DNA of 64,000 nucleotides from assembly GCA_022793795.1 (NCBI GenBank), contig JAAWDM010000032.1, forward strand, positions 62,001-126,000, in the 5' to 3' direction. Shown piece by piece: positions 39,472 to 47,900 of the stretch; the first letter of the stretch is position 1; the number at the start of each line of letters is the position of its first letter. The notes beneath the pieces were generated by a model. It ran no database searches, was not told the DNA's origin, and worked only from the letters and a program-made list of their open reading frames with translations. Both the position numbers and the translations under genes were made by a program. This DNA comes from Bacillota bacterium (GTDB taxonomy: Bacteria > Bacillota > Clostridia > Peptostreptococcales > Anaerovoracaceae).

Positions 39472-41794
<2,323 letters not shown>

Positions 41795-41834
41795 CTACGA
41801 CGCCCTCCTTTATATTTCATTTTGACCCATGGGA

Positions 41835-44800
41835 TCATAACATCTCAAACAAATTCATTTGTCTGCCGTATTCCCCACTCCTGCTCATATGGAGTTTCTC
41901 TCGTTCTATAAGTTCTGAAGAAATCTCTTCCACCAATGGAGACGGCGCCTTGGAGGATGTAAGGATGAGTCTTTCCTTAGCTCTGGTCAGCCCTACATAA
42001 AATAGTCGCCGCTCCTCTTCTTGATCTGCAGGAGTTTTCCCACCTGCAAAGGGAATTTGCCCCTTTCTTGTGCCATAGATCATCACCACTGGAAATTCCA
42101 GCCCTTTTGCGCCGTGAAGGGTCATCAAGGTAACCGCGCCTGCCTTATATTGCTTGCCGCAGCAGCGTTTCAATTCCCCTTCTGTATCCGTCTCCAGGGC
42201 TTCCAGAAATTCCTCCATCTTCTGATAAAACATGGAGGTCTGATAAAGCAGCTGCATTTCCTCTTTCTGCTCCAGATTTAGTTCCTTAATCCATTCCTCC
42301 AAAATTTTTTGTGGCTTTTTCCGTTTTATCTGTGACGCATACTTTTCTGCCATGGCCGTATAACTATCAGCTGCCAAACTTCCTTGCTCCACATTCCATA
42401 ATCGTGTCATGGCAGTCTTGAGGGCTAACTTGTCCTCTGGCTGCAGCAAAGCCTTGAAAAAGCAAATCGTCCCTCGCACAATCTCATCGTGAAGAAAGGA
42501 CTCTCTCCCTGCCACCACATAAGGGATGCCTTCCCTTTTTAGACATTCTTCCAAAAGCGCAGCCTGTCTATGGGTTCGATAAAGGACCGCAATGTCCTCG
42601 AAGCTCCAGGCATTTTCTTCTCTCTCAGAAAAGACTTCCTGGGCTTCCAACATACCGATTCCGCCAGCCAAGCGGTTAATCTCCTTTGCTATGAAAATTG
42701 CCTCTGCCTTTTCACTGTCTGCCTCTATCATCCTAACCAAAGAACCATCGGGCTTATTGGGATGTAACATTCTTTTTCCGCCCGGATTATGGGAAATGAC
42801 TTGGCAGGCTGCTGCCAATATCTGCGGCGTGGAACGATAATTTTCCTCCAAAGTAATCTGACATGCGTTGGGGAAATCTTCTGCAAGTCTCTGGAAGCAT
42901 CCGGCATCAGCCCCTCGAAATCCATAGATGGCCTGGTCCTGATCTCCGATGACAAATAACTCTCGTCCCCCTCTATTCCATTCCTGAATCAGTTGGTATT
43001 GCAAAGGATTAATGTCCTGGAACTCGTCCACTAAAAGGTAGGAAAACGGACCTCCAGCGGTCTCCTTTCCCCTTTCAGCGTTCTCTTCCCTGGCGATTCG
43101 CAGTGCCTCAAGCAAAACGTCGTCAAAATCCAGGGCTTCCCATTCTCGCAGGCTATTCTGGTATGCATCCAATACCTGCTTTTCCAAACAGGAATCCGCC
43201 TCATCCATTCCTGTTTTAGAATTAGATAGCTCCATGAGAAGTTGGGAGACAGACTGTTTCAATCCAAAATCCTTTCGGATTGCAGAAACCAAATCTCTCG
43301 TCTCCATTTCTCCTGCAATGGTGAGTTCTATCCCTCGGTCTTTGAGAAGTTTCCATGCAATCCCATGAAAACTTCCGATGTGGAGTTTTTGAGCCGGTCC
43401 CTTTCCCATCTGCTTCTGAATTCGCTCCCGCAGCTCTTTGGCAGCCTGGTTGGTAAACGTCACTGCTGTTATGGAAGATGGTTTTACTCGTCTTGTCTCA
43501 ATTAAGTACATAATATGAGCTGCCAGCGTTGCCGTTTTTCCAGTTCCAGGACCAGCCTTGACCATGGTTACACGGTCAACGGACGCAATCGCTTGTCGTT
43601 GCTTTTCATTCCAGACAGGTTCCTTTCCCTGGTCTTTTGCCAGGCTCTCTGCTGAAGAATCTAAGACTTTCCCCCTGCTTTTCATATTCGATGTTAACGG
43701 TACGGAAATATCACTGTTTTGGCCCCCAATCCTTTCCCGTATATCCGCCAGCTGTTCCAAAAAACTCATCTGTCCGTCCAATCCCTGAATCTCGCTGAGA
43801 GTAAACAGGCGCAGACTGCCGTATTCCCCATCAAAACCCGGCCGCCATGTCACCTCGCCTCTTCTCAAGCGTCTGATGCCCTCTGCAATCAGACGTCCCG
43901 ATATGCTGCCTATGTCTTCTACCGGTATCTCTCGCAGAATGGAAAACTCCGGCCCTAGATTTTGGATCATGGTGTGATACATGTTGTCAACCTTGGCGCT
44001 GGCTGATGAAAATCCCAAAGAGGCGCCGATCAATTCCGGTAATGGAACAAGGCTTTCAAATTCCGCTGCCTGTGGTTTTCGATACCCTTCCGGCCTATCG
44101 GAAAGCTGCTCAATACGATGAGATACTCCAATAGTCAATTTCCGTCCGCAGACCGGACAGATTCCTCCATATTTTTCTGTCTCCCTAGGCGCTAGACAGA
44201 GACCGCATTTCCGATGTCCGTCATAGTGATATTTTCCCTCTTCTGGGAAAAACTCAATGGTTCCTGTCAATCCTTCCCCAGTCTGAATGGCTTTCCTCAA
44301 TTCTTCATAAGACAGTTCAATGTCCAGAAGATTGGCTTCCCGTCCCAGTTTTGCCGGCGAATGGGCGTCGGAGTTGGAAATCAGCTGGTAACGGTCAAGG
44401 GCAGAGACTCTCCAGTTCATGGATGGGTCAGAAGAAAGTCCCGTTTCCATGGCGCAGATATAGGACGACAAATCTCCAAAACATTCTTCCACAGTATCAA
44501 AGCCCGAAAAAGCCCCAAACAGAGAAAAGTGTGGCGTCCAAATATGAGCCGGAACATAGACCGCCTTTGGACATAATTCCAGCAGTATCTCCAGCAGATC
44601 ATGGCAGTCCAGTCCCAATATGGGCCTACCGTCAGAATGGATATTCCCGATAGTCTCCAATTTATGGGAAACGAGTTCCGCTTCCTCTAGCCCGGGCAGC
44701 AAGATGAGACTGTGTACCTTTCTAACCCGACCATTTTTCTTATAAATGGAACTGATTTCTCCAGTAACGACAAAATGAGGCTGCATACAATCTGTTGCCC

Positions 44801-45023
44801 CATCATCCTTGATTCGATATTCCTTTTTCAGTACATAAAATCCATTCCCAGCTGGCTCCAACTTTTCCGCAAGTTCTTGCCGCCATGCAGGATGGGTAAA
44901 ATCTCCGGTTCCAACGATATGGATTCCCTTACGTCGCGCCCATAAATCCAGATACTCCGGTATGCAGTCTTTGCTGGTGGCCCTAGAATAATGAGAATGA
45001 ATGTGTAAATCTGCAATATACAT
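41835..45023 (-). CDS. EndoQ-like PHP endonuclease fused to a UvrD/PcrA-type helicase
   Basis: 1062 residues. Residues 1 to about 420 resemble endonuclease Q (TIGR00375): PHP motifs DLHIHSHYSRA and GTGDFTHP, SNSDAHSP, and a zinc finger of two CxxC pairs, CGLC and CPVC, at about 270-290. From about 470 on it is a superfamily 1A helicase: AGPGTGKT (Walker A, about 488-495), TFTNQAAKELRERI, LLVDEFQDINPLQ, GDQDQAIYGFRGA, TLMTLHGAKGLEFP and YVGLTRAKERL. EndoQ nicks DNA 5' of deaminated bases such as uracil and hypoxanthine; the helicase could unwind from the nick. The coupling is inferred. It sits between DUF3788/queA and tgt. Confidence 0.85.
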   Translation of the reverse strand: MYIADLHIHSHYSRATSKDCIPEYLDLWARRKGIHIVGTGDFTHPAWRQELAEKLEPAGNGFYVLKKEYRIKDDGATDCMQPHFVVTGEISSIYKKNGRVRKVHSLILLPGLEEAELVSHKLETIGNIHSDGRPILGLDCHDLLEILLELCPKAVYVPAHIWTPHFSLFGAFSGFDTVEECFGDLSSYICAMETGLSSDPSMNWRVSALDRYQLISNSDAHSPAKLGREANLLDIELSYEELRKAIQTGEGLTGTIEFFPEEGKYHYDGHRKCGLCLAPRETEKYGGICPVCGRKLTIGVSHRIEQLSDRPEGYRKPQAAEFESLVPLPELIGASLGFSSASAKVDNMYHTMIQNLGPEFSILREIPVEDIGSISGRLIAEGIRRLRRGEVTWRPGFDGEYGSLRLFTLSEIQGLDGQMSFLEQLADIRERIGGQNSDISVPLTSNMKSRGKVLDSSAESLAKDQGKEPVWNEKQRQAIASVDRVTMVKAGPGTGKTATLAAHIMYLIETRRVKPSSITAVTFTNQAAKELRERIQKQMGKGPAQKLHIGSFHGIAWKLLKDRGIELTIAGEMETRDLVSAIRKDFGLKQSVSQLLMELSNSKTGMDEADSCLEKQVLDAYQNSLREWEALDFDDVLLEALRIAREENAERGKETAGGPFSYLLVDEFQDINPLQYQLIQEWNRGGRELFVIGDQDQAIYGFRGADAGCFQRLAEDFPNACQITLEENYRSTPQILAAACQVISHNPGGKRMLHPNKPDGSLVRMIEADSEKAEAIFIAKEINRLAGGIGMLEAQEVFSEREENAWSFEDIAVLYRTHRQAALLEECLKREGIPYVVAGRESFLHDEIVRGTICFFKALLQPEDKLALKTAMTRLWNVEQGSLAADSYTAMAEKYASQIKRKKPQKILEEWIKELNLEQKEEMQLLYQTSMFYQKMEEFLEALETDTEGELKRCCGKQYKAGAVTLMTLHGAKGLEFPVVMIYGTRKGQIPFAGGKTPADQEEERRLFYVGLTRAKERLILTSSKAPSPLVEEISSELIEREKLHMSRSGEYGRQMNLFEML

Positions 45024-45080
45024 AAAAGCCTCTTTTCTTTCTATAAATCTATATATTGGTACTTCACTTCGGGCAAAAAT

Positions 45081-45147
45081 CCAACATTGACCTCAAAATC
45101 ACCTCAGGAAAACTGATTTTGCAAAGGGAGTCTCATCAAAATGTTGG
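45081..45147. repeat. 67-bp nested palindrome upstream of the EndoQ-UvrD gene
   Basis: Outer arms CCAACATT and AATGTTGG enclose inner arms CAAAATCA and TGATTTTG. In the 326-base gap between the EndoQ-UvrD and DUF3788 genes. It could be a short insertion or a folded leader RNA. Confidence 0.45.
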
Positions 45148-45178
45148 CTATTTCTGTCTAAACATAAGAAATGTACAA

Positions 45179-45251
45179 CCGCTTCCTTTCGGCAACGCCG
45201 GCGCACGCATCCGCCATACATCACAGTGCGCATCACTATGCGTTCATAATA
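45179..45251 (-). repeat. shared structured element, copy A (leader of the EndoQ-UvrD gene)
   Basis: On the minus strand this reads from a TATTAT -10-like box through GAACGC, a CGCAT-agtg-ATGCG hairpin (45229-45242), a 24-base insertion relative to copy B, and a CGGC-gtt-GCCG hairpin (45190-45200), then AAGGAAGCG. It shares these blocks in the same order and orientation with copy B upstream of ruvC. Confidence 0.6.
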
Positions 45252-45349
45252 CCACAAAACATACAGGAATTGTGAACTGATGGAAAGGCTTTTAAAATAA
45301 GAAAACAGAAGAATTGATGTCTGAACCTTTTACAGCCGTAGATAATTCC

Positions 45350-45766
45350 TCACATTTTCCGATTCGGTTTTCTTTTAATAGCTAGCAATTTCATATAGTC
45401 ATCAAATTCAGCCGTATTGGTCGGTTCAAACATTACCCATTTCCCATCATAATAAGTTTTAGCTTCATCATATTGCTTGCAAACAGCACTAGAAAACGAA
45501 TCCCTTATAGCTTCAAATTTTGCTCTTTCATCTTTCCCAAAAATAATCATGAAACCAATGCAGCCACTTTTGGCGTATAGGCTGCAAAGGGTTTTTCCGC
45601 CTCTGCGATACTTATACTCATAAGTCCAATTCTTACCGCCAGTATTCCATAACCGTTCCATATCATATTTTTCATCAATAGCCGAACATAGCGCTTGCCA
45701 GACTTCATACAAGGATTTTCCCAGCAATTCAATCATAGTTGATTGCGATGGTATGTTTTCAAGCAT
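45350..45766 (-). CDS. DUF3788 family protein
   Basis: 138 residues from MLENIPSQSTMIELLG, with GGAGG seven bases upstream; a longer frame to 45811 lacks a site and would start five bases from queA. The sequence LYEVWQALCSAIDEKYDMER, KSGCIGFMIIFGKDERAKFE and KWVMFEPTNTAEFDDYMKLL fits DUF3788, a small soluble family of unknown function. It follows queA by 50 bases. It is unrelated by content to its neighbours, so it was probably inserted into the queA-tgt region. Confidence 0.8.
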   Translation of the reverse strand: MLENIPSQSTMIELLGKSLYEVWQALCSAIDEKYDMERLWNTGGKNWTYEYKYRRGGKTLCSLYAKSGCIGFMIIFGKDERAKFEAIRDSFSSAVCKQYDEAKTYYDGKWVMFEPTNTAEFDDYMKLLAIKRKPNRKM

Positions 45767-45816
45767 AATATTTCCTCCATAATGCGCTCTTTCTGGTTTT
45801 CCACCGTCCAAAATTT

Positions 45817-46866
45817 TTACTCAATATACATTGCATCCCCATAGGAAAAGAACCGATACTTTTCATCTACAGCGATCTTGTAAACCCTTAAAATATCCTC
45901 TCGGTTGTATAAAGCCGAAATCAGCATGAGCAAGGTAGATTTTGGCAGATGGAAGTTGGTAATCAAGGCTTTGATAATTTTAAATTCATATCCCGGATAG
46001 ATAAAGATGCCTGTAGAACCATGCCCTGGCGCCACCAGCCACCTTCCGCTTTCCTCATCCCATGCAGCAGCGCTTTCCAAAGTTCTGGTAGAAGTGGTTC
46101 CTACCGAAACGATGCGTCCGCCGGCTTTAATGGTCTGGTTGATGCTATCAGCAGCCTCTTTGGAAATCTCATATTCCTCAAAATGCATATGATGTTCTTC
46201 AATGTTCTCCACCTTTACCGGACGAAATGTTCCGATTCCCACATGAAGGGTTACATAAACCACCTTTATACCCCTTCTGACCGCTTCCTCCAATAGCTCC
46301 TTGGTAAAGTGAAGTCCTGCCGTTGGCGCTGCCACCGACCCCTCTTCTTTGCAATAGACGGTCTGATACCGCTCCTTATCCTGGTTATTATTTCCCCTTT
46401 CAATATATGGAGGCAACGGCATCTGTCCCAACTCCTCAAGCCGTTCCATGAAGATGCCCTCATATTCAAACTCTACAATACGAGTTCCATCCTCACCGTA
46501 ATCCTTTAAATGGGCGCGAAACAACTTTTCATCAGAAAAGCTGACCACATCGCCTATTTTCATCCGCTTTCCCGGCTTTACCATGGTCTCCCAAAGATCC
46601 CCTTCTATCCGCTTAATCAACAAAAACTCCACCTTGGCGCCAGTTCCTTCTTTCACGCCAAAAAGTCTGGCGGGCAAAACTTTGGAATTGTTTAGCACCA
46701 GACAATCAGTAGGTTTTAAATAGTCTAAAATATCGTAAAAATGTTTGTGTTCTATGGCGCCATCCTGGCGATGGACCACCATAAGCCGAGATTTATCCCG
46801 CTCCTTTGCTGGGGTCTGGGCGATTAACTCTTTGGGAAGTTCATAATCGAAATCGTTAATATGCAT
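45817..46866 (-). CDS. queA: S-adenosylmethionine:tRNA ribosyltransferase-isomerase
   Basis: 349 residues with [28 protein letters not shown] and [11 protein letters not shown], typical of QueA. It transfers the ribosyl part of S-adenosylmethionine to preQ1-34 of tRNA to form epoxyqueuosine. It follows ruvB with a 14-base gap, giving the common ruvA-ruvB-queA order. Confidence 0.97.
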
Positions 46867-46880
46867 AAAAAGTTTTCTCC

Positions 46881-47900
46881 TTACTCCTTATCCTCCTGGC
46901 TATCAGGTATCGGCAGACCTAGGTGCTGATATCCTAGCGGCGCTACCATTCGACCTTTTTGTGTTCTGTAAAGCAGGCCTGCCTGCAGCAAATAAGGCTC
47001 GTAAGCATCCTCAATGGTTACTCGTTCCTCTCCCACAGATGCCGCAATGGTGTCGATACCCACAGGTCCTCCATGAAATCGCTCTATGATGGCTTTAATA
47101 ATCTCCCTGTCAATCCGTTCCAGTCCCAGATCGTCAATCCCCAAAGCCTCTAATCCCTCTCTAGTAATCTGAATATCGATAATACCGTTTCCTCGCACTT
47201 GAGAAAAATCCCTGATTCGTTTTAGAAGTCGGTTGGCAACCCGCGGTGTTCCTCGAGAACGACGGGCCATCTCTGTCAAGGATTCCTCATCAATCTCTAC
47301 GTTCATAATCTTGGCTGAACGGGCAAGGATTTCCTTTAATTCCTCCAGCGTATACATTTCAAACTTGCTGATGACACCAAATCGATCGCGCAAAGGCGCC
47401 GACAGGCTTCCCGCTCTGGTTGTCGCCCCTACCAGGGTGAATTTCGACAAATCCAGGCGGATGGAGCGAGCCGAAGGTCCTTTACCGATGACAATATCCA
47501 GCGCATAATCTTCCATGGCAGAATAAAGCACTTCCTCCACAGAGCGATTAAGACGATGAATCTCATCAATGAATAAAACATCGTTATCGTTCAAGTTGGT
47601 CAAAATTGCCGCCAAATCACCTGCCCGTGCGATGGCTGGTCCAGACGTAATCTTAATATCTACCCCAAGTTCATTGGCGACGATTCCGGCTAAGGTAGTC
47701 TTTCCTAAACCTGGAGGGCCGTAAAACAACACATGGTCTAAAGGTTCGCCGCGCAACTTAGCCGCCTCAATAAATATTTTTAAGTTTTCTTTTGCATTCT
47801 GCTGGCCGATGTATTCATCCAACCGCTGGGGCCGAAGGGTAACTTCCTGACGCAGTTCTCCCACGTTGATATCAGCAGAAGTAATTCTTTCATTCTCCAT
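46881..47900 (-). CDS. ruvB: Holliday junction branch migration helicase RuvB
   Basis: 339 residues with [11 protein letters not shown], Walker [21 protein letters not shown] and the C-terminal winged helix ([18 protein letters not shown]). Hexameric motor that drives branch migration with RuvA. It follows ruvA by 24 bases. Confidence 0.98.

Follow-up and report, generated by a model that had tools for sequence, protein, structure and literature searches.

A clamp-motif-bearing fusion of endonuclease Q and an SF1A helicase in Bacillota, with a predicted role in the repair of deaminated DNA

Introduction

When endonuclease Q (EndoQ) nicks DNA, the lesion stays on a 5' end in need of removal, and the aftermath of this nicking has been an open question. 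A gene in the window (the whole 64,000-nucleotide stretch of a Bacillota genome analysed here) places that question within one polypeptide: the likely next enzyme after EndoQ, a helicase, is fused to EndoQ itself, in a family that is stable, widespread and equipped with sliding-clamp-type motifs. Do the two halves serve one repair event, the first nicking and the second unwinding, as a preliminary description of this DNA proposed, or do they only share a chain? We found no description of a fusion of EndoQ with a helicase in the open-access papers searched, and one may exist elsewhere; the proteins themselves are surely present in sequence databases under generic names.

Results

One uninterrupted frame joins EndoQ to a helicase

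The gene and its neighbours are as follows.

41835..45023, minus strand: EndoQ–SF1A helicase fusion gene, 1062 aa, ATG start
40649..41770, minus strand: tgt, downstream neighbour (TIGR00430), which also adjoins the fusion in the related locus L001
45817..46866, minus strand: queA, upstream neighbour (TIGR00113)
46881..47900, minus strand: ruvB, further upstream (TIGR00635)

The frame runs through all 1062 codons with zero internal stops. The same fused architecture recurs across dozens of independent genomes, which rules out chance, misassembly or joining by a frameshift as its origin. At the level of sequence, the window protein is confirmed as an endonuclease Q joined to a UvrD/PcrA-type SF1A helicase. 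A structure prediction from three sequences (the window, L001 and L002) reached a mean pLDDT of only 37.6, and the model was set aside.

Immediately upstream of the fusion and before queA lies a 153-aa ORF (45350-45811) with zero NCBIfam matches. The 5' region of the gene also holds an interspersed repeat (45066-45264, core 45179-45256), for which the genome's other contigs hold about two dozen short matches at roughly 72-88% identity; none of the matches listed falls in a genus-mate, and the repeat has no Rfam match. At a lax threshold, Rfam returned two sub-threshold matches, one of them within the helicase coding region to a family from C. difficile described as an 'sRNA in a helicase gene'; this was read as coding similarity or chance.

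The N-terminal half retains the residues that define EndoQ

43806..45014, minus strand: endonuclease Q module, residues 4-406, comprising PHP catalytic domain, zinc ribbon and C-terminal domain (by PfuEndoQ and TIGR00375)
44355..45011, minus strand: PHP metal/catalytic and base-pocket residues H7, H9, D41, E89, H104, H160, G195, S197, D219 and H221 (by alignment with Pfu)
44148..44207, minus strand: four-cysteine zinc ribbon, C273-x2-C276 ... C289-x2-C292 (by PfuEndoQ alignment)

The closest solved structures of residues 4-406 are those of PfuEndoQ (5zb8 and 7k30-7k33, E~1e-46), aligned over Pfu residues 5-382. The ten PHP and pocket residues listed above align, in order, with Pfu H8, H10, D, E76, H84, H139, G169, S171, D193 and H195, and are identical in all 64 members of the clade of fusion-type EndoQ described below, where the column is present; the equivalents of Pfu E76, H84, H139, G169, S171 and D193 are also invariant in 21 ordinary Bacillota EndoQ. 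According to a review (PMC8307549), E76, H84 and H139 of PfuEndoQ are essential zinc ligands, H139, G169 and S171 line the base pocket, where T and A are kept out by G169 and S171, and D193 is catalytic; its equivalent is the residue changed in the D192A mutant of PMC6202378. About half of the fusion-type clade has another residue at the aligned position of the second zinc-ribbon cysteine (C276); the window protein has all four.

The preliminary description had assigned this half to EndoQ and named, as the outcome that would count against it, a match to generic PHP phosphoesterases only, with EndoQ-specific residues lacking. What we found is a full-length match that includes the C-terminal domain and keeps the catalytic, pocket and zinc residues; the metal ligands it had proposed to check (E89, H104 and H160, with catalytic D219) are present and invariant in 64/64. 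Its suggested TIGR00375 search gave a divided result, covering the whole length of the model (positions 2-373/374) at 168.6 bits, below the curated cut-off of 326.6. That cut-off is passed in just 2 of the 398 genomes of our phylum sample, and most ordinary Bacillota EndoQ fall below it too, so it marks a narrower subfamily. The score thus lowers a reading of the protein as the TIGR00375 equivalog, which is itself a hypothetical equivalog, and leaves its identity as EndoQ unaffected. TIGR00375 matches occur in 207/398 genomes, about 202 of them real EndoQ, and the claim that EndoQ is rare in bacteria does not hold for this phylum. From its family, the fusion would be expected to nick 5' of uracil, hypoxanthine, xanthine and AP sites.

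Three further positions (window 44427-44912) are invariant in the fusion-type clade, namely H44 (63/63), T194 and S198 (64/64 each), and differ in most or all ordinary EndoQ, which carry S, L and A. Because T194 and S198 flank base-pocket residues, a shift in specificity is possible.

The C-terminal half is an additional SF1A helicase

41946..43613, minus strand: UvrD/PcrA-type SF1A helicase, residues 471-1026, motifs Q to VI (PF00580, PF13361; PcrA/UvrD/Rep structures)
42129..42509, minus strand: shortened 2B insert of about 127 aa, where the PcrA of this genome has 178 aa; no GIG-type motif

The best structure matches of this half are PcrA, UvrD and Rep, and 13 SF1A motif or catalytic residues are identical in 47/47 relatives; the PcrA of this genome shares them. 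Earlier called a complete SF1A helicase, it does have every motor motif tested, but its 2B insert is some 50 aa short. Against the curated PcrA profile it scores 344 bits, below the cut-off of 911. On these features it is an SF1A member that lacks the marks of a PcrA/UvrD orthologue (GIG-type 2B, Tudor tail and curated score). PcrA and AddA are encoded at other loci of the same genome, so the fusion carries an extra helicase, whose polarity would be 3'-to-5' as in its family.

Clamp-type motifs follow each half

43758..43772, minus strand: predicted beta-clamp motif 1, QMSFL, residues 418-422 (QxxhF/L conserved after the EndoQ domain)
43614..43757, minus strand: variable linker between EndoQ and helicase, residues 423-470 (by alignment of relatives)
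41847..41861, minus strand: predicted beta-clamp motif 2, QMNLF, residues 1055-1059, at the C-terminus (QxxhF/L conserved at the protein end)

A QxxhF/L motif lies within 26 aa past the EndoQ domain in 44/49 relatives (shuffled sequences: mean 1.67, maximum 7), and a Q-x-x-hydrophobic-F/L/Y/W motif lies in the last 12 residues of 46/48 complete fused proteins (1.07 expected by chance; at most 5/48 among 500 shuffles), both counts being taken over related sequences and hence not independent. The two C-terminal exceptions have QLALQF and EEEPTLF as their endings. Both motifs are conspicuous within linkers and tails that otherwise diverge freely, the distance from motif 1 to Walker A ranging from 53 to 136 aa across the fusion family.

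The bacterial clamp consensus is QL[S/D]LF, or more generally QxxLF (PMC12309361), a strict form from which the window's motif 1 departs. The position of motif 1 is analogous to that of the PIP box of archaeal EndoQ, which lies at the C-terminus and is required for PCNA binding and stimulation; clamp motifs have been mentioned for some bacterial EndoQ as well (PMC4858679). The ordinary Bacillota EndoQ that we sampled end at the domain and carry no clamp-type motif. At locus L062, where the two halves are split genes, each half has a motif of its own, QAKLF in EndoQ and QASLF at the helicase end. Conserved QxxLF-type motifs in an otherwise variable linker and tail fit a beta-clamp client protein, which would bind DnaN.

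The fused state looks ancestral

Fusion-type EndoQ occurs in 59/398 genomes from many families, mostly at about 50-68% identity to the window protein, and about 45 of these 59 genomes have a long fused frame. In a tree of 86 EndoQ domains (from a quick search, with long branches among ordinary EndoQ that limit detail there), one clade with support 100 unites all 50 fused proteins with 14 stand-alone ones of the fusion type, apart from 21 ordinary EndoQ; this supplies the survey of fused and stand-alone forms that had been called for. The fused/stand-alone label changes 8 times on the tree, at least 7 of them forced, and the simplest reading of the phylogeny is a single early fusion followed by at least 7 losses of the helicase, such that the fused state looks ancestral. 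Traces of separation are visible at L069, where a decayed helicase remnant lies behind EndoQ, and at L062, where the helicase is a separate gene right after that for EndoQ. A search for the lost helicase elsewhere in genomes with EndoQ alone found only ordinary PcrA-sized proteins, except for the split pair of genome G336. Among fused proteins, identities of the EndoQ half track those of the helicase half (Mantel r 0.91; 0/1000 permutations as high).

Four genomes (G297, G597, G619 and G574; L132, L133, L129/L021 and L130/L067) hold fused and stand-alone copies of the fusion-type clade together, and these stand-alone copies form their own group in the tree.

Loss of the helicase in several descendants means that this EndoQ can work without it, and the halves might then act on separate occasions: EndoQ as a back-up nuclease for AP sites and uracil, the helicase as an accessory, PcrA-like motor bound to the clamp, for fork or recombination clearance, the two joined for nothing beyond co-expression and co-location at the clamp. 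A clamp-type motif for each half, kept even in the split pair of L062, a long and variable linker, and retention of EndoQ through all of the losses are what such an arrangement would leave behind, and Srs2 is a known clamp-tethered SF1 helicase with a separate task. However, the strong co-inheritance of the halves, the very wide retention of the fusion and its place among uvr genes in one genus (below) speak for joint action, and we judge separate action unlikely while still giving it some weight.

Within the window's own family the fusion is found in 5/248 genomes, and it is missing from the four other genomes of the same genus, where it is therefore dispensable. The fusion is thus old in the phylum and patchy in this family.

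The queA-tgt site is variable within the genus (window 41770-45817 compared with L042, L043 and L044). In G748 the two genes lie about 415 bp apart with a nearly empty site between them; in G777 one M20-peptidase-like gene is found there, and in G278 two such genes together with a 319-aa coiled-coil-like ORF.

Gene context in one genus points to excision repair, and UDG absence goes with the fusion-type clade

Genus g161 has the fusion placed between uvrB and uvrA in all 8 genomes sampled, uvrC coming after uvrA wherever the sequence stretch extends that far, and some genomes have extra DNA between fusion and uvrA. We found no shared neighbours of the fusion in the other lineages examined. The uvrB-fusion-uvrA-uvrC cluster, from one genus only, points to DNA excision repair. 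Taken literally, it could mean that the fusion is an accessory to, or replacement for, UvrC or UvrD in nucleotide excision repair (NER), handling bulky lesions with UvrA and UvrB and not deaminated bases. This we consider very improbable, given that uvrC is still present, that the pocket residues excluding T and A are invariant, and that the cluster does not recur in the other lineages examined.

Uracil-DNA glycosylase (UDG, PF03167) is absent from 16/45 genomes with an intact fusion and from 18/59 (31%) with any member of the fusion-type clade, compared with 16/143 (11%) with ordinary EndoQ only and 7/196 (4%) without EndoQ (fusion-type clade versus no EndoQ, Fisher p 5e-8, a value that ignores shared ancestry and includes a few incomplete genomes). 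The 18 UDG-lacking genomes belong to 13 families. Two UDG-family matches occur in the genome from which the window comes, so the fusion is not the only uracil route there, and a simple replacement of UDG by EndoQ is ruled out for this genome. EndoV occurs in 7/398 genomes, and EndoQ is lacking from all seven (p 0.007, ancestry ignored); we looked for it in the window's genome and found none.

A role against phages, in which the fusion would nick and unwind uracil-containing or base-modified phage DNA, deserves consideration here because presence is patchy in the window's family and PADLOC profiles for GajB match the helicase half. GajB of the Gabija system is a UvrD-like helicase in anti-phage defence. 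An antiviral role has also been proposed for Bacillus EndoQ (PMC8307549). Yet the GajB matches cover the generic UvrD motor only, fusion-type EndoQ had no match in the phage and plasmid collections searched, and the family is an old single clade with invariant catalytic residues, next to housekeeping genes that include tgt, uvrBAC and folD; we therefore think a defence role very unlikely.

Discussion

Returning to joint action on one lesion, we think it fairly probable that the fusion nicks and unwinds deaminated DNA while docked on the clamp. The beta sliding clamp would first hold it on DNA through one or both QxxLF-like motifs. The EndoQ half would then flip out a uracil, hypoxanthine or AP site and cut directly on its 5' side, which would leave a 3'-OH. 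A cut 5' of the lesion keeps the lesion on the 5' end, and a 3'-to-5' SF1A motor that loads onto the undamaged strand where the nick lies would peel that end off; the geometry fits, as a motor of this polarity on the strand opposite the nick would remove exactly the lesion-bearing end. Finally, a DNA polymerase would receive the 3'-OH from the clamp, a 5' nuclease would trim the flap and ligase would seal. The substrates, the site of the cut, the polarity of the helicase, its docking on the clamp and the sequential use of the two activities are all projected here from the respective protein families.

The one-chain route of nicking followed by unwinding that was proposed at the outset is still the best reading of the protein's anatomy, and co-inheritance of the halves, the uvr cluster and the association with UDG absence help it. 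The two clamp-type motifs, the g161 cluster and the UDG association are new beyond the preliminary description. A larger claim, which we put forward tentatively and regard as doubtful, is that the fusion adds to BER and NER a third bacterial route of excision, in which one clamp-guided protein finds, nicks and strips deaminated nucleotides and can stand in for UDG across dozens of families of one phylum. Many gut bacteria may own a previously undescribed one-protein repair tool, a possible answer to how those lacking UDG handle uracil.

Comparison with known systems places the fusion as a bacterial parallel to the archaeal link between EndoQ and PCNA. It resembles archaeal EndoQ (P. furiosus, T. 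kodakarensis) in its whole EndoQ sequence, metal ligands, pocket residues and zinc ribbon, and in having a clamp-type motif directly after the domain, at the place of the PIP box of Pfu and Tko; the archaeal form has no helicase, whereas the fusion is about 600 aa longer, with a second, C-terminal clamp-type motif and a target that would be DnaN and not PCNA. Stand-alone bacterial EndoQ (Bacillus, TIGR00375), whose B. pumilus member is an active nuclease according to a citation in PMC6202378, has the same catalytic residues but belongs to a separate clade at about 26-34% identity where compared, and those sampled stop at the EndoQ domain, with neither helicase nor clamp motif. With PcrA, UvrD and Rep the fusion helicase shares all motor motifs, but it is only about 32% identical to the genome's own PcrA, its 2B is shortened and without the GIG-type motif, and a clamp-type motif in a short C-terminus stands in place of the Tudor-like tail. 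Like GajB, it is a UvrD-like motor paired with a nuclease; unlike the Gabija arrangement of a separate GajB beside GajA, its nuclease is an EndoQ in the same chain, and its surroundings in the window are tgt and queA/ruvB rather than a defence context.
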